The notes below the pieces were generated by a model. It worked only from the letters and a program-made list of their open reading frames with translations. It had not been told where the DNA came from and ran no database searches. Of a DNA stretch of 22,794 bases, positions 13,042 through 22,570 are shown in pieces. Numbering within the stretch: the first letter of the stretch is position 1; every line of letters begins with the position of its first letter. This stretch comes from a virus: IMG/VR virus record IMGVR_UViG_3300042568_001269, positions 1-22,794 of that record; one strand, 5' to 3'. Made by a program: the position numbers and the translations under genes.

Positions 13042-15117
13042 TCACAATGTCGCATAAACAGCATAAACAGAAGCGTCAAGACGCCTCCGCTCTTCCGCAG
13101 ATGGCGATGCCCCCTGCCTTGAGATAAATCTCGAAACTGTTTCTTTGTGTAATGCTTGGAGAGGAGGCGGTGTTTTAATGTCCGACCTCAATATCTCCCG
13201 CACCCTTTCTTCAGTGATCTCTTCGCCTACCGTAAATTGCGCAAGAACAGCAAATCGAAAACTTTCGAGTGCGACAATCTCTTCGCTAGAAGCTTCCCTC
13301 AAATTCTTTTTGCCTATAGATTTCAAATAGGCAGGATGAGTAAGCTCAGAAATCTTCTTGTGGGCTGAGTCAGCCCAGACAAAAGCTTCTGCGTATTCTG
13401 CCTGAGACGGCCTCATCTCGCGCCTCTTGCGGGGCTGAGTGTCCGCAGAACCATCTGGCCTTCCCTGTCCAGGCTGTCCCTTTGGCTTTTCTTCTGTCGG
13501 CGCACCAGGAAGGGGGCTTGAGGATTGCTCCTTCGGGATAGACGTTGCGGGATCGATGCCAAAGTCCGAAGGGGACATTTGCCCCATTTGAGCAAAGATC
13601 TTTTTGACAGACTCAGTGGTGTCGGTCGTGAATGGGCCTGGACGAAAAGGCATATTGCCGTCTTTCCGCATACGACTCTCCCTCCGAACACGAACACGCT
13701 CAATCTCTGGCACAAGCGAGAATCTTTCCTGAAGTGCTTCGTCAGAGATCAGTCCTCGGTCAGACAGATCAATCAGCAATCTCTGTAGGGCCGCCTCGTC
13801 AGTCAGCGTGTTCTGGTCGAACACAACCTGGGCAGGCAGACGAAAACCCATTGCCTGCTGAACGATGCGAATTTCGTTCGCCCAGAAGCGAGCCAAGATA
13901 TCTCTTCCGTATTGCAACCTCTCTATGAGCGTCGACAAAGAAACAAAGTTGTTACCAAATCCCTGGGGAGAAGGAAGACCAGTTAACCCAGGAGGAATGC
14001 CCAACCCAGCAAAAATACTATTCAAAATAGGACGATACTTTTCCTCGCCCAGAAACTTAGAAATATCTGTAGATGTTTCCTGGAGCTGTAGCTCAGGCCC
14101 CCAGATCAGGTCAATTGAACCACCCCCCACGTTGTTCATCAGCATGTCTGCAAGCCTAGCAATGGCTGCTTCCGTCGGGAGAATCCTGTGCTCAAGAGAA
14201 CCGAGCTTCCATAAGCGAATGTGAGAGACCGCCCCGTCTAGGGCTGAGATGTCTGCCAACTTCATTTTGCGAAGCATGATTAAGTCTTCGAGGATTGAGT
14301 AAGTCATGGGGCGTGCCCAAACTTGCCAATCGTCTCGCTTGTAATACAGGGCGATGGTCTTTTCTGCAGGGAGGGGAATCAGCTTGCCTCCCTTGCGGGC
14401 CAGATCCATCACTTCTTTTGGAACCCTGGTCAACATGTCGGTTTCTATAGATGCCTGAGGCTTCTTCAATTTTTTAGAAATCACTTCCGAAACACGAACA
14501 CCATACCGAAAGTGCTTGGTGCCGATAAAAGGCGCAAGCTCTGCACCATACACATCAATAGAAAGAGGGTTAAAAATAGTATATTCCCAAGGAATTTCCA
14601 TTGGCTTTGGCGGCTTGCTAATGTCAGCCACCATGTCTGCGGCTTGCCCTTTTTGGATCGCCGCAGCATCCCCGTCAGAGATGCGGGCTGTTGAACGCTT
14701 GATGATCACGTTCGCCGCGCGGAATAACATGTTGAGAATGCGTTCTGTGCGCTCCTTACCGTTAATCTTGTTGAACCACTCCTTGAAGAACTTTTCGATT
14801 CTTGGGTTTGGATGGACCAGGTCAATACCCTGACAGGCGAACTCACTCATCATGTCGATGGTGTTTCGAACAATCCCAATCCTATCGTATGACTGCATGC
14901 ACGCGCCAATGATATCAATGTCTCTCGTCGGGATAGCTTCTCCAGGACGAAAGAAGTCGTAATCTCGGCGATCATACCCTTCCCGAACAGAAATATTTGG
15001 TTGTGAAACATTACGGAAAGTGTTACCACCAGTGGTCTTATGTATGATCACCTGGCCGTCATGATATGCTTGTTCTTTTTCGTCAGCGCTGACGAAAAGT
15101 GGCTTGTGTTCACTCAT
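13042..15117 (-). CDS. Portal protein
   Basis: 691 residues, directly after the large terminase with a 4-base overlap (ATGA), as portals usually are. N-terminal half: RNTIDMMSEFACQGIDLVHP, then KFFKEWFNKINGKERTERIL and MLFRAANVIIKRSTAR, the wing and clip style of large portals. Centre: PLSIDVYGAELAPFIG, YKRDDWQVWARPMTYSILED, LGIPPGLTG, GFGNNFVSLSTLIERLQYGR and FWANEIRIVQQAMGFRLPAQ, matching the portal core and crown helix. C-terminal tail (from about residue 540) is Pro/charged, then helical. Only weak RBS potential lies upstream, so translational coupling to the terminase is likely. It forms the ring through which DNA is packaged, and docks the terminase. Larger than many portals because of the tail. 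Confidence 0.85.
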   Translation of the reverse strand: MSEHKPLFVSADEKEQAYHDGQVIIHKTTGGNTFRNVSQPNISVREGYDRRDYDFFRPGEAIPTRDIDIIGACMQSYDRIGIVRNTIDMMSEFACQGIDLVHPNPRIEKFFKEWFNKINGKERTERILNMLFRAANVIIKRSTARISDGDAAAIQKGQAADMVADISKPPKPMEIPWEYTIFNPLSIDVYGAELAPFIGTKHFRYGVRVSEVISKKLKKPQASIETDMLTRVPKEVMDLARKGGKLIPLPAEKTIALYYKRDDWQVWARPMTYSILEDLIMLRKMKLADISALDGAVSHIRLWKLGSLEHRILPTEAAIARLADMLMNNVGGGSIDLIWGPELQLQETSTDISKFLGEEKYRPILNSIFAGLGIPPGLTGLPSPQGFGNNFVSLSTLIERLQYGRDILARFWANEIRIVQQAMGFRLPAQVVFDQNTLTDEAALQRLLIDLSDRGLISDEALQERFSLVPEIERVRVRRESRMRKDGNMPFRPGPFTTDTTESVKKIFAQMGQMSPSDFGIDPATSIPKEQSSSPLPGAPTEEKPKGQPGQGRPDGSADTQPRKRREMRPSQAEYAEAFVWADSAHKKISELTHPAYLKSIGKKNLREASSEEIVALESFRFAVLAQFTVGEEITEERVREILRSDIKTPPPLQALHKETVSRFISRQGASPSAEERRRLDASVYAVYATL

Positions 15118-18100
15118 TTGGATTGTGTTCCGTATGTGTTTGGATCTATTCGTTCTACACCGTCACGACCGATCGCCGCTCCATAATTGCCCCTAGTTGC
15201 GGATAGAAACCACTCTGGAGCAATATACAGGTCGCCACCAGTGTTCTTAACATTGTTGGCAAAGCCACCTACGGGTAAGTATTCTCTTGGCGGTTCTGTC
15301 CTTTGGATTTCTCTTGCTGCCGAATTGGCCATGAGTAGTGCCGAATAACGGTCCTTCCTTTGTCTACCCGCTCTTGATCCGGGCAATCTTACAGATGGGA
15401 GATCCCACCGATCACGACCACTAGCAGTAGACGTGTGAACGATACTAGACAACTCATCCTTGAGTTCTTCGATATCCATGACGGCATCTTCAAGAGTGTC
15501 AAAAAGAGAGATCTCTTCTCCGTCCTCAAGCACGATACGCCCAGCAACCTTATCTTCTTCATAGGCTAGGCCGAGCGCAGCCGAGTCAAATGCTGGGAAA
15601 AGAAGAACCCTATCTTCGAGATCTTTGCGTAAGCCATGATTGGCCTCAACCATCCACTTGATGTCGACGAAATTAACCATTTCGACAATGTGTTCACCAG
15701 GCTTACTGTCTGAGTCCTGTGGTTTGCTACCGTTGACTATTCTCCATAAGGGCTTTTCTCCCTCTTTCATTTTCTCTGTGTCGTGAAGAGCCTCTTCAAC
15801 AGTCACACCTCCCCCCTGGGAGTCGATACAGAGACGCTGTACATTGGGGAAACTAGCCATAAGTTCGCGTATTTTGCGAGCACAGAACGCATAGAAGTTC
15901 TGCTCCTTAATCGTCCCCCTCTTAAGCCTTTCCTTGTGCGCCTTTCTGTTGGTCGTCCAGCAATAAACTAATCTGCGATGAGACGGATAGAGTGCTAGTA
16001 CGACGACAGAAAAATGATCGCGTTCAGACGCTGGGTCAACCGCTATGATGTGCTGAACATCTTCTCCAATGAGATTGACCCCGAAGGTCACCACCTCATT
16101 GTCGTGGACAATGTTCGCATTATGGTTTGCTACGCTGGCCTCAATCAGACTTCGCTTAAAGAAACCCTCCGAGTCTGTAGCAAAAGAAGCCCCAAACTCA
16201 ATCATGTAGTTGCTTCTAGACAAAGTCGCCTTAGCAGACGAAATCTGTTTCTCATCCATGAAGCCTTTTGGCAACATGTCGACCGGCATCCTGATGATTG
16301 AAAAATCCTTCCAGTCAAAACCATCTGGAACAGGACCGTCAAAAATCGCCTCCAACTTTTTCCTGTCGCCGCAGCTTTCAATGAAAGCCTTGTATGTCTT
16401 CCATGTTTTATAGAAATGATTGAATGCATAATAGGCAGTTCCGGAAATCACATTTTGGTTGGATCTCATAACCCTAGCTTCTGTTTTGTCATCCTCTTCT
16501 GACCAGTGTCCAAGCTTCTTGAGAAGACGAACTCTAGCTTGGTGCCTAACGCCAGCAGCAGGATCGGCACTCACCGAGGCAAAGCCTCGGACGACATTCT
16601 GATAGATATCCTCAGGCACAGAATTATGCTGCACGAAACCATTCGCAACGAAACGATGCCCATCAGGAAGATGATAGTCATACAAAGTATGTACGCCAGG
16701 AAGCTCTTCAACGGAAAGAACAACCCGAGAACTTGGCCTGTCGTCCTTCTCCAAAAGGAGGACCCATCCAATGTCACCATTTTGACGTATCGAAGAATGG
16801 CGCCCCATCTTCAACAAGAGTATCTGTGTTTCTCTAGCCATAGTCTCAGACAAACTGCTACCAAAATCTGGGCGGGAAAGGAGGGATTCCAGATAGGAGG
16901 CGACGACAGGAAAAGAGGATGTGAGAATGACGGCAGGTGTCACCCCACCAAGGTCGACAGACTGGCCAACCATCTCAGCCAAACTCTCCTCTTCGTCTAC
17001 CATAGGCCCCGCCTCTGGAAAACGATAGGTTGATGGCATAGGCAATATGTCACCAGGAGAAAGGTCGCGCCCCAACTTCCATCCATTCTCTGTTAGGGCC
17101 TGATGGATCCCTGAGCAGACAAAGGAGAAGCCGCTGGCTGTCGTCACCCTGTATGCTTTGATAGGTGGGGTGCGGATAAACATGTCTGGGGACTCGTAAC
17201 CCCTTTCGTCACCAGTGTTTAGGCGAATATCAGTCATGCCTTCCGTTTCTTCAATCCGGAAAAGGCCCCTGTCTGTCTCGACTAATGTTCCAGCACCAAG
17301 ACAAGCATATTCGTCAACGATGATGTAATTCGCTCTCTGGCCTCTGATCTTCTCTCCGTTGCCTAGGGGAAGTGCTATCCCGGTAGAGTCACCGATAATC
17401 ATTTCACATCGGTCAATGTCTCTACGAGGCCCCTGCTCCCTATTCGCCCTACCTTTGCCAGTCCCACAGAGATCGCGCAGAAGCACTCCGTCGGCCCAAA
17501 ACTTTTCCATGTATTCGAAGATGACCTTAGACTGTCGAAATGCGGCCCCAATGATGGCTACCTTTGCGCCTTGCGTAAAAGTCAGCCTCAGTATTGAATA
17601 TAGGCCAAGGATAAATGAGTTGTGGGAGATGAATCCGTTGCTTACAAACGAGTGATCCTCTGGGACATACAGATCGTATGTTACGCTGGATGATGAGTCC
17701 AAGGATCCAACGGTGTCGTAGTAGTAGTTCTCGTCGTAAATGCGCTTAAGTTTTTGCCAGGGCAACGAGTTCGACTTATTCGACGTCGCCTTCAACGCGG
17801 CGCCAAGAATTTCATATCCTATTGGGCCGGAGTTAGCGATAAAGCCTTGCCCCAGCTCACACAACTCCTTTTCCACAAGCTTTGTGGGGATATTGTCAAA
17901 ATTGCTAGAGGTGGTCTTAGAAAGAGCAATGGTCAGCGCCCGTCTTTTTTTCTCGACCTGAAACCCAATATTTTCAGCAAACATAGATCTGCTTCTACCG
18001 ATAATTCTTAGCTTGTACTGTAAGACAGATCTGACAGATGGGGCGATACGAGAGATAATGCCAAAACGAGTCAGTACAAACTGAAGAGTAGACATCAGCT

Positions 18101-19160
18101 TCATAGATTTTGAATAGTATTCAATCGACCCATCTTCACACACCGAGCCTCTAACGTCAAATAGAGCGCGAATAAATGCCGCACAGCTAGCCTTGGGGGC
18201 CTGGAGTATGGACGTCGGAAAATCTTTTTCTTTAGATGCCGCTGAACCAAAACCGTATTTTTGAAAAAGTTCGTCCCATATCTCGTTGCTGCGAAATTTG
18301 TATCTGTATTTCTTTTGCTTCGAAAAACAAGTCTTGTCCCAAAACATAAGAGATAGTTCGTCAAATTTTTTAGCTATTTCAATCTGCTGAGTATTGACAC
18401 TTATGTAAGAGCGAGTTGTGTAAGATCCGGCGCCCACCAATATGCCAAACAAATACGCCATATCTTCACAAACGTCATTCGTCTCAGTAAACCAAGTCTC
18501 AGATCTGTCTATAACGACACGAGTACCAAGTTTAAGATTCTCAGTATTGACCCACTCCACCCTGTCTCCAACGACCGCCCTAATAGGATGATTGGGGGTG
18601 TTTTCCATTTCAAAACCACCCCTGGTTTTGACGACAATGTTGTTGGACATACCATTCTTCCAGGCGTAGGCGACATCCTTGTGGCCATTTTCTCCAAGGA
18701 CAGTTAGTCCGACATGCTCTACTTTCTGGTGAGGCTCCGCATCAATAGCAAAGTTTTCGATTTTATGAATGCCAGTATTAGTCATGATCAGTGTGGGGCC
18801 AGATACACACTTACCAAGACCTCGACTACCTATCAACATGGGGAAGGGGCGATTCCAAAGCTCTCTCAGAATGACATGCTGGAAAGGCATGATGTCCACG
18901 CCCAAAAGAAGCTTGCATGTGAATGGAAAATATTCAGGATTCCTCATCACCCGTAGTAAGTTTTCGGGCGTGATGTTTCCTTTAATTGCTCTAAGCGGAT
19001 GCTTAGCGTCGACAGGAAGAGCTACTAGGGATTCCAACTGCTCAATTGACGTCTGGGCAGTTACATACTGAAGGTCTTTTTCCGACAGCAACCAAGCCCT
19101 CTCAATCAGCCTCTTAATCCTGTCCTGGTTCTGGTCCTGGTTCTTGCTGTCGCTTGACAT
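15114..19160 (-). CDS. terL: Terminase large subunit with two inteins
   Basis: 1348 residues; the mature protein would be 724 after removal of two inteins (residues 118-514 and 620-846). AGGAG lies 8 bases before the ATG. ATPase: the Walker A loop GSRGLGK-S is split by intein 1 between Lys117 and Ser515; Walker B NYIIVDEYA (612-619) is followed directly by intein 2. Nuclease (RNase H-like): HIIAVDPASERDHFSVVVL with Asp1042, RLCIDSQGGG with Asp1113, and RQRKDRYSALL with Asp1270 are the expected three acidic motifs. The enzyme cuts concatemeric DNA and pumps it into the prohead through the portal. Both inteins interrupt catalytic motifs, so activity depends on splicing. N-terminal 47 bases overlap the ERCC4 nuclease gene; the stop overlaps the portal ATG (ATGA). 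Confidence 0.92.
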   Translation of the reverse strand: MSSDSKNQDQNQDRIKRLIERAWLLSEKDLQYVTAQTSIEQLESLVALPVDAKHPLRAIKGNITPENLLRVMRNPEYFPFTCKLLLGVDIMPFQHVILRELWNRPFPMLIGSRGLGKCVSGPTLIMTNTGIHKIENFAIDAEPHQKVEHVGLTVLGENGHKDVAYAWKNGMSNNIVVKTRGGFEMENTPNHPIRAVVGDRVEWVNTENLKLGTRVVIDRSETWFTETNDVCEDMAYLFGILVGAGSYTTRSYISVNTQQIEIAKKFDELSLMFWDKTCFSKQKKYRYKFRSNEIWDELFQKYGFGSAASKEKDFPTSILQAPKASCAAFIRALFDVRGSVCEDGSIEYYSKSMKLMSTLQFVLTRFGIISRIAPSVRSVLQYKLRIIGRSRSMFAENIGFQVEKKRRALTIALSKTTSSNFDNIPTKLVEKELCELGQGFIANSGPIGYEILGAALKATSNKSNSLPWQKLKRIYDENYYYDTVGSLDSSSSVTYDLYVPEDHSFVSNGFISHNSFILGLYSILRLTFTQGAKVAIIGAAFRQSKVIFEYMEKFWADGVLLRDLCGTGKGRANREQGPRRDIDRCEMIIGDSTGIALPLGNGEKIRGQRANYIIVDEYACLGAGTLVETDRGLFRIEETEGMTDIRLNTGDERGYESPDMFIRTPPIKAYRVTTASGFSFVCSGIHQALTENGWKLGRDLSPGDILPMPSTYRFPEAGPMVDEEESLAEMVGQSVDLGGVTPAVILTSSFPVVASYLESLLSRPDFGSSLSETMARETQILLLKMGRHSSIRQNGDIGWVLLLEKDDRPSSRVVLSVEELPGVHTLYDYHLPDGHRFVANGFVQHNSVPEDIYQNVVRGFASVSADPAAGVRHQARVRLLKKLGHWSEEDDKTEARVMRSNQNVISGTAYYAFNHFYKTWKTYKAFIESCGDRKKLEAIFDGPVPDGFDWKDFSIIRMPVDMLPKGFMDEKQISSAKATLSRSNYMIEFGASFATDSEGFFKRSLIEASVANHNANIVHDNEVVTFGVNLIGEDVQHIIAVDPASERDHFSVVVLALYPSHRRLVYCWTTNRKAHKERLKRGTIKEQNFYAFCARKIRELMASFPNVQRLCIDSQGGGVTVEEALHDTEKMKEGEKPLWRIVNGSKPQDSDSKPGEHIVEMVNFVDIKWMVEANHGLRKDLEDRVLLFPAFDSAALGLAYEEDKVAGRIVLEDGEEISLFDTLEDAVMDIEELKDELSSIVHTSTASGRDRWDLPSVRLPGSRAGRQRKDRYSALLMANSAAREIQRTEPPREYLPVGGFANNVKNTGGDLYIAPEWFLSATRGNYGAAIGRDGVERIDPNTYGTQSK
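16623..17303 (-). other. Intein 2 (mini-intein after Walker B)
   Basis: Residues 620-846 of the terminase frame, 227 long. Starts Cys620 (CLGAGTLVETDRG, block A); block B is FVCSGIHQAL with Ser683-x-x-His686 where Thr is usual; the end is YDYHLPDGHRFVANGFVQHN (blocks F/G), with His845-Asn846 and Ser+1. These are all residues needed for standard splicing. There is no LAGLIDADG motif, but residues ~728-805 (RETQILLLKMGRHSSIRQNG) resemble the tail of such an endonuclease, suggesting deletion of most of it. Inserted next to the Walker B acidic pair. Confidence 0.88.
17619..18809 (-). other. Intein 1 (Walker A) with degenerate LAGLIDADG domain
   Basis: Residues 118-514 of the terminase frame, 397 long. 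Block A CVSGPTLIMTNTG with Cys118; block B ENTPNHPIRAV with Thr188 and His191; C-end VTYDLYVPEDHSFVSNGFIS then His513-Asn514 with Ser+1, all the splicing residues of a class 1 intein. Two endonuclease helices are visible: LFGILVGAG (237-245) and IRALFDVRG (330-338). The catalytic Asp of each LAGLIDADG-type motif (last D) is Ala244 and Arg337, so DNA cleavage is probably lost while splicing is kept. It splits the P-loop between Lys and Ser. Confidence 0.92.
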
Positions 19161-19629
19161 CTATGACTCTCCTGAAAATATGATGCGCGATATCCTGGCC
19201 ATGCCTGCCCGCAAGTATTACCTTGGTCGGGTACTGCACCTGGATCTCCATGAGCCTGCGCATCAAGAAGGGACCCTTTACCCGTATGAACGGAATCTTT
19301 GTTCGAGGAATACTTCCGTCATAAGGAAATTTTAACAGATCATCCATCGTGAATTCTAGAACAAGAAACGAAAACGGAAATTCTCGCATCCTCTCAAGCT
19401 CTCGCTCAAAACGCGCCTGAGTAACATTGCCAGCAAACTCATCCACACTACCCTTCCGCTCTATCGTCAAAATCGTTTCCATTCCACGCAAAGAATAATC
19501 CCCCGTCTTAAGCGTAGAAATTTCTGTTCCAGCACAAGACTTTCCAATCGGGAAAGACCAACCCTGCTGCTCTCTCGTATCCTTCACCACCGTGAACTTG
19601 GGTTCTTCTTTTGGCACGGGTGTCTCCAT
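19114..19629 (-). CDS. ERCC4/XPF-type nuclease
   Basis: 171 residues from the ATG at 19629. The core shows the ERCC4 motifs in order: VVKDTREQ (Asp17), TGDYSL (Gly43-Asp44), LTIERKGSVDEF (Glu57-Arg58-Lys59 and Asp63, the ERKx3D signature), then FSFLVLEFTMDDLL. This family cuts branched or structured DNA. Between the small and large terminase genes, a role in trimming recombination intermediates before packaging is plausible (as T4 endonuclease VII does), but it is inferred. No helix-hairpin-helix domain is present; the C-terminus is a basic/Pro-rich tail. The frame stays open upstream to 19860, with another ATG at 19740 that has no RBS and lies inside the previous gene; the chosen ATG has only a weak GTAGG. 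Ends 47 bases inside the terminase gene. Confidence 0.8.
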   Translation of the reverse strand: METPVPKEEPKFTVVKDTREQQGWSFPIGKSCAGTEISTLKTGDYSLRGMETILTIERKGSVDEFAGNVTQARFERELERMREFPFSFLVLEFTMDDLLKFPYDGSIPRTKIPFIRVKGPFLMRRLMEIQVQYPTKVILAGRHGQDIAHHIFRRVIDVKRQQEPGPEPGQD

Positions 19630-19681
19630 AAGGCCTACCGGGATAGTTCGGGTGGGACGCCCCCTGCGTTTCCCCGAATCT

Positions 19682-20512
19682 TTATGTCGACGCTGCGAGA
19701 ATGGTGTCAGAATTAAGTAGGGGGAGGTCTTCTGCGTCATCGTAAAACTTATGTACTGAGCCGAGCCGGTCTGATTCCCTGTCCGCGGCGACACGAAGAA
19801 GTTCCATGTGCCTTCCCGTGAACTCCCGCTCGTCCTCATCCTGTAGTCGTCGCACCACACCCAGGAAGGTCTCCTTGGATGACTCTATTCTGCTAACACG
19901 CTGATCTCTCGTTGCCTTCAAGTCCTTCAAAAGCCCCTGGTGCTTCTCTTCTAACTTGATGAATTCCGTACTCTTGGCGGCGTCAGCCGCCTTACACGCC
20001 TGGATTTGAGTCTCAAGCTGGAGCACATAGTCCCGGTCAGCATCAGTCATCTCTGCGGGGTCTTCAAATCGCTTTGAAAAAGCGTCTAGAAGTTTCGTTA
20101 GCCTAATCACATCCACCATCGCGCCCCTCTTGCCGCGAGAGTTCCTGTGCATCATGATTTCTAACTTGATTACAAGAAAAATCTGAGTTTCCTCAGTAAC
20201 CAATACGTCCTCCTTGAACTGACTCATGTACTGAGAATACTTTTCCTCAAAATACTCCAACTCGTCATCCGCTAACTCATCCTTCAACTGCTTCCACGCC
20301 ATCGTCTTGCGAAGCTTGTGACGAGATTCTAAGAGTTCGACTTCCTCTTTCACTTCCTTCGGAAGATCGAGAGAGTGTTCCATGAGATATGTGCGGACTT
20401 GCTTCGGGGATCTGTTGATGCGCGTGGCGACTTCTTCAGGAGTCATGTTTTCCACGTTGATGCGGATGAAAGCTTTTTCCGCAGTTGACATTTGACCCTT
20501 TTTGACGTTCAT
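19682..20512 (-). CDS. Putative terminase small subunit (HTH plus coiled coil)
   Basis: 276 residues. AGGGAG lies 8 bases before the ATG, which overlaps the stop of the preceding gene (ATGA). Residues ~8-45 contain a helix-turn-helix (MTPEEVATRINRSPKQVRTY), the DNA-recognition part expected of small terminase subunits. Two long charged helical stretches follow (KEEVELLESRHKLRKTMAWK and, at 150-235, ETQIQACKAADAAKS into EKHQGLLKDLKATRDQRV). The C-terminus is acidic. Recognition of packaging sites and loading of the large subunit is inferred from HTH, oligomerisation potential and position two genes before the large terminase. It could be another DNA-binding regulator, since the protein is longer than many small terminases. 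Confidence 0.55.
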   Translation of the reverse strand: MNVKKGQMSTAEKAFIRINVENMTPEEVATRINRSPKQVRTYLMEHSLDLPKEVKEEVELLESRHKLRKTMAWKQLKDELADDELEYFEEKYSQYMSQFKEDVLVTEETQIFLVIKLEIMMHRNSRGKRGAMVDVIRLTKLLDAFSKRFEDPAEMTDADRDYVLQLETQIQACKAADAAKSTEFIKLEEKHQGLLKDLKATRDQRVSRIESSKETFLGVVRRLQDEDEREFTGRHMELLRVAADRESDRLGSVHKFYDDAEDLPLLNSDTILAAST

Positions 20513-21694: not shown

Positions 21695-21718
21695 CACTAT
21701 TGTCGTGTGTCAATAGTG
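21695..21718 (+). other. Inverted repeat 1 before the rightward gene
   Basis: cactattg / caatagtg, 8 bp perfect, 8-base loop. Not followed by a T-run. Together with the next hairpin it makes a structured leader or an operator pair. Confidence 0.6.
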
Positions 21719-21731
21719 CCGATAGTATGGT

Positions 21732-21757
21732 CATGCCGAATACTTTTTTTCGGCATG
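21732..21757 (+). other. Inverted repeat 2 before the rightward gene
   Basis: catgccga / tcggcatg, 8 bp perfect, 10-base loop rich in T. It ends 16 bases upstream of the AAGGA of the rightward gene. Confidence 0.6.
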
Positions 21758-21787
21758 CCTCGAAACCACGAAAAAGGAATTCACGCT

Positions 21788-22570
21788 ATGTCAAGCTTTT
21801 TTTCCGGTATTTCAGAATATGGAACCACGAAAAAAGAAAATCAGAAAAGCTTACTTGTCAAGCTTTTCAGGGCACTAAAAAAGCTACCGAATTCGGAAAA
21901 AGCTACCGAAAAACAGAAAAAGTTATATGGTGCCTTATCGTCTATCGTATTACCACAACTACTTGCGAGATGTCAAAACGGGGTAATATGGCGAAAGTTC
22001 GAGGCTATATTTTCCGAAAAAGCTTCGAATTCTAATATGAAAAAGTTGCACCCACTACTTCCATGCGTGGTTTCGCAAGAACAAGCAGTTAGTGACGCTA
22101 TGGAAAAAGTATTGGAACACGTTTTGAGCGGAAAATTCCCTAGTCTAATCGACACAAACGATATTGACAACGCCTATGTCATAGCTTTTTTCGTCCGTTT
22201 TTCCGCTAATTGTTTGCGTGGTATCGTGTTGCCTAGGCAAGTAGATGACGAAAAAAAGTCTGAAATAGCAAAAAAAGACGAAAAAGCTACCGTCGAAGTA
22301 GTAATTGTAAGTGAGACTATGAAAGACTTCACTTTCGATATCCTGAAAAAGCTATCGGAAACTTTCAGTTTCGAGGAATTGCAACTATGGGGAAAATCAG
22401 TGCAAGGGGGGGGGAAAAAAGCTTTTTCAGACTGGAAAAAAGGAAAATCGGTAGGGTACGTCTCAATTAATTCGGTGAATATAGTAGTGAGAGATTTTCT
22501 AGGGAAAATTGACGATAGAATTCTACGGGGTAAAGTTGCGAGAGAAGTAGTCAATAGCTTGACTACTTGA
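21788..22570 (+). CDS. Unrecognised protein; weak resemblance to an ECF sigma factor
   Basis: 260 residues from the ATG at 21788 (AAGGA 9 bases upstream); the frame is open back to a GTG at 21707, but that extension crosses the hairpins and has no RBS. It is the only rightward gene, and its DNA is A-rich with many AAAAAGCT tracts, unlike the leftward genes, suggesting a different origin. Lys-rich N-terminus (KSLLVKLFRALKKLPNSEKA). Residues ~115-175 (EQAVSDAMEKVLEHVLSGKF then AYVIAFFVRFSANCLRG) are spaced like sigma region 2, and 205-250 (FDILKKLSETFSFEELQLW then YVSINSVNIVVRDFLGK) like region 4 HTH. I treat this as a hypothesis. A run of 9 G then 6 A lies in the codons for GGGKK at 22406-22420. 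Followed by a strong terminator, so it is monocistronic. Confidence 0.75.
   Translation: MSSFFSGISEYGTTKKENQKSLLVKLFRALKKLPNSEKATEKQKKLYGALSSIVLPQLLARCQNGVIWRKFEAIFSEKASNSNMKKLHPLLPCVVSQEQAVSDAMEKVLEHVLSGKFPSLIDTNDIDNAYVIAFFVRFSANCLRGIVLPRQVDDEKKSEIAKKDEKATVEVVIVSETMKDFTFDILKKLSETFSFEELQLWGKSVQGGGKKAFSDWKKGKSVGYVSINSVNIVVRDFLGKIDDRILRGKVAREVVNSLTT

Follow-up and report, generated by a model that had tools for sequence, protein, structure and literature searches.

A phage large terminase subunit (TerL) has very probably been invaded at two conserved sites of its ATPase by homing class-1 inteins, which were then retained after decay of their endonucleases. The gene lies in the window, by which we mean the whole 22,794-nt stretch of viral record IMGVR_UViG_3300042568_001269 analysed here, a contig that represents a single metagenome assembly. 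It is read from the minus strand as an open reading frame (ORF) of 4047 nt with no stop across all 1348 codons, and is laid out as follows:

15114-19160, minus strand: TerL precursor ORF, T4-type large terminase; 1348 aa, or 724 aa without both inteins
18810..19160, minus strand: N-extein, 117 aa, with Walker A GSRGLGK at its C-terminal end
17619..18809, minus strand: intein 1, 397 aa (residues 118-514), Cys1 ... His-Asn|Ser+1, at the Walker A site
17304..17618, minus strand: middle extein, 105 aa, from the Walker A Ser to Walker B DEYA
16623..17303, minus strand: intein 2, 227-aa mini-intein (residues 620-846), Cys1 ... His-Asn|Ser+1, after DEYA
15114..16622, minus strand: C-extein, 502 aa plus stop, with the remaining ATPase and the nuclease region (AVDPASE)

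The assignment of the interrupted gene draws largely on its relatives. By itself, the middle extein gave a weak match to the PHROG terminase large subunit in a profile search (E = 0.0014); an intein-free relative, L014, matched a PHROG terminase at 1e-23, and both L014 and the likewise intein-free L061 scored above the cut-off for Pfam Terminase_6N (PF03237). Searched as a profile against solved structures, the C-extein returned no match. Judging from the family profile on these relatives, the Walker A and B motifs and the neighbouring head gene, the window TerL is a T4-type large terminase (Terminase_6N). A portal-like gene comes after TerL, and a sigma-like gene and an ERCC4-type nuclease gene lie upstream, the latter directly so (19114-19860, minus strand). 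Elsewhere in the window, a 287-aa ORF on the opposite strand to TerL (21707-22570, plus strand) found no convincing match in a family search, and at the contig end (1-532) a minus-strand ORF is cut off within its low-complexity PTTTTASPTTT repeat. TerL relatives also occur in two bacterial metagenome bins, which is not informative on the host.

Aligned with the intein-free L014, the precursor shows two insertions and no others, one at K|S and one at A|S; zero extein residues are lost, and the exteins join cleanly and in frame at both junctions. Each insert was matched separately by the Pfam profile Intein_splicing (PF14890), intein 1 with E = 1.4e-10 and intein 2 with E = 8.1e-09, the latter just 0.1 bit above the cut-off, and NCBIfam detected two C-terminal splicing regions in the precursor. 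Both inserts retain the block A Cys1, block B His, block F Asp, C-terminal His-Asn and Ser+1; block B reads NTPNH in intein 1 and CSGIH in intein 2, where Ser (SGIH) takes the place of the usual Thr. By these residues, the profile and the in-frame insertion, the inserts are two different class-1 (Cys1) inteins, and both are predicted to splice. AlphaFold models of the two inteins had pLDDT values of 46.8 and 36.3, too low to test the Hint fold. These results bear out much of the initial annotation, which had proposed two inteins with intact splice-site residues in one TerL and had placed them at residue ranges that are exact (18809..17619 and 17303..16623, both minus strand). Its statement that both catalytic motifs are interrupted holds for Walker A, which intein 1 splits between K and S (GSRGLGK|S), but not for Walker B: the YIIVDE motif itself is uninterrupted, and intein 2 sits beside it at DEYA|S, two residues past the catalytic DE.

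The two inteins differ in what is left of their endonucleases. Intein 1 also matches LAGLIDADG_3 (Pfam), yet both catalytic acids of its LAGLIDADG motifs (LFGILVGAG and IRALFDVRG) are replaced, with A and R at the catalytic positions compared with D and D in the terminase intein of Psychrobacillus phage Perkons (MT325768). Lacking both acids, the endonuclease is probably inactive, and intein 1 is therefore not expected to home. A peptide-pattern search using intein 1 alone found no relative, whereas a junction pattern did recover relatives; a variant of the Walker A junction pattern gave zero matches. One candidate retrieved by the intein 1 profile, L095, was set aside, as it looks like an intein end in a ribonucleotide reductase.

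The 227 aa of intein 2 contain no LAGLIDADG profile match, whereas its allele in relative L011 (L011:4801-6000) is a full-length intein of 400 aa with such a match and with a weak match to an AP2 domain (E = 0.00012) that falls under the cut-off. When aligned to this full-length allele, intein 2 was found to keep remnants of blocks C, E and H, so that, as far as the alignment can tell, it is a mini-intein whose LAGLIDADG domain was deleted down to remnants. With its endonuclease so reduced, intein 2 is not expected to home either. Its identity is 67-68% to the alleles of L002 and L003, 66% to that of L011 (N part only) and 40% to that of L083, which is likewise shortened, but differently, and the catalytic splicing residues are otherwise conserved among the allelic B-site inteins. 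Within the mini-intein clade intein 2 evolves faster than the exteins; pN was 0.22, compared with pS values of 0.62 and 0.82 in the pairs involving the window, a level at which pS is near saturation and selection is measured only roughly. This low pN/pS suggests that splicing is under selection.

Site occupancy was examined in 80 TerL relatives taken from viral contigs and was counted only where the site was covered. The Walker A site was empty in all 70 covering relatives, and the Walker B-side site in 66 of 71, the other five carrying an allelic intein (four with a 675-nt insert and one with a 1200-nt insert). In one of the four short-form carriers, L001, the sequence begins within the intein or coverage is incomplete, and the short form was assigned from its readable part. 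In a C-extein tree the mini-intein carriers formed one clade (support 96/96); L011, the carrier of the full-length intein, was nested in an intein-free group, adjoining L006.

The TerLs of L006 (83-2239) and L011 (4159-7515) share ~98% amino-acid identity, and their nucleotide differences crowd at the L011 insertion site. Of the 58 downstream differences, 45 fall in a 270-nt stretch of the 1515 nt (binomial p = 5e-23): the first 150 nt hold 37, the following 150 nt hold 8, and later intervals of that length about 2 each. Upstream, 7 of the 13 differences are found no more than 28 nt from the site (binomial p = 4e-7). The tract cut-offs for both tests were picked after inspection of the data. 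Such crowding is the pattern expected of co-conversion in homing. Because this co-conversion-like tract accompanies an intein whose GC content (50%) is below that of its gene (62%), the full-length allele of L011 appears to have homed recently. The window clade is not clearly supported as its donor: at the 45 tract differences the window agrees with L011 at 17 and with L006 at 17, and L003 agrees with L011 at 23 and with L006 at 11.

Further members of the same family carry inteins at these and other sites. Junction patterns identified three inteins in the TerL of L083 (L083:240-5027, minus strand, on a 148.8-kb contig), at Walker A, before KIRGQRAN and at the DEFA site, each insert matching an intein or LAGLIDADG profile; the Walker A-site intein is 36% identical to intein 1. 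A fourth intein-like match lies elsewhere on that contig (61936-62145). Two inteins interrupt the TerL of L092 (L092:411-4796), one before KIRGQRAN and the other at a fourth site (FGA|C...HN|C); the TerL of L093 has a single one, before KIRGQRAN, and L091 starts within an apparent Walker A-site intein and also carries a DEFA-site intein. Among those compared, the inteins cluster by insertion site and not by phage. What is new here is the number of intein sites in the window TerL family, at least four, and the presence of three inteins in one TerL, that of L083. No report of a three-intein TerL was found in the literature searched, where the single paper mentioning three inteins as well as terminase deals with three separate genes, none of them a terminase; this is not proof of priority.

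We picture the history of the gene as follows. Inteins would have arrived by endonuclease homing at two conserved ATPase sites of TerL. After translation, self-excision of each would ligate its flanking residues (K and S within Walker A, A and S next to Walker B), and double splicing would yield the 724-aa TerL; because both inteins sit at essential ATPase sites, we infer, in agreement with the initial annotation, that packaging needs both splicing events. The endonucleases would decay and the inteins persist, since any imprecise removal would leave TerL non-functional. Relatives that are mostly intein-free, the occurrence of single and triple occupancy, and endonuclease decay together fit an ordinary homing cycle.

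The initial annotation had gone further and proposed that the paired inteins act as a timing or condition sensor, that is, that they are kept since their splicing rate responds to redox, temperature or DNA and so times or gates packaging. Both do occupy sites at which failure to splice should abolish activity, both seem immobile yet retain their splicing motifs, control of packaging by inteins was proposed by the authors describing cyanophage Mic1 (PMC7156551), and two mycobacterial DnaB inteins are reported to respond differently to stress (PMC6195587). We nonetheless consider this unlikely: close relatives mostly package without inteins, as the empty sites counted above indicate, occupancy is patchy and tracks homing and decay, and retention at essential sites requires no benefit. 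In addition, five mycobacteriophage TerL inteins that were tested spliced fast, mostly to ligated product (PMC5050341). A broader version, which treats the TerL family as a hot spot for inteins (at least four sites, up to three inteins per protein) and holds that dead-endonuclease inteins are kept there for staged-splicing regulation of motor assembly, strikes us as distinctly unlikely.

The replacement of the block B Thr by Ser in intein 2 could be taken to mean that one or both inteins are splicing-dead, with TerL function supplied by another copy or by cleaved fragments. This is very improbable, as the other catalytic residues are present and conserved across allelic B-site inteins, the reading frame is unbroken and intein 2 is evolutionarily constrained. 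We give practically no credence to a chimeric assembly or misread gene; the sequence does come from a single contig whose left end enters repeats, but the ORF is uninterrupted, and independent contigs with allelic inteins at the same sites, together with the clean joins, argue against an artefact. Homing at two sites followed by endonuclease decay thus remains the preferred reading.

Two inteins in one TerL are an already known kind of arrangement. The TerL of cyanophage Mic1 has a published pair which, like that of the window, combines an intein carrying a homing endonuclease domain with a smaller one, but these lie in the ATPase and nuclease domains, whereas both window inteins are in the ATPase (PMC7156551). 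The crAss-like Delta-group phage OBYQ01000140 likewise has TerL in three in-frame parts with two inteins; these are described as Hint-Hop type with recoded TAG, in contrast to the LAGLIDADG-type remains and standard code of the window (PMC7886860). Mycobacteriophages provide precedents for both site types: TerL1-a lies at the P-loop K|T and TerL1-e at Walker B, the same two kinds of site as in the window, and the BAKA and Bethlehem TerL inteins cleave the empty allele (PMC5050341). Those inteins reside in terminase_1 proteins and are not known from that account to share one protein, whereas the window has a T4-type terminase with both sites occupied at once. The Perkons terminase intein is also inserted after the Walker A Lys and is 27% identical to intein 1, but its LAGLIDADG acids are intact and it is the one intein seen, at Walker A, compared with two inteins in the window. 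Haloarchaeal MCM similarly has several inteins, neighbouring ones among them, in one ATPase gene, and these home independently; it is, however, a cellular gene with active endonucleases, whereas both window endonucleases appear inactive (PMC10643990). Relative to these systems, the window contributes a T4-type terminase that has an intein at each of its nucleotide-handling motifs, and the B-side site offers a natural series of empty, full-length (apparently homed recently) and mini-intein states. With the three-intein TerL of L083 and the pair L006 and L011, homing, decay and a possible regulatory benefit become open to direct test.
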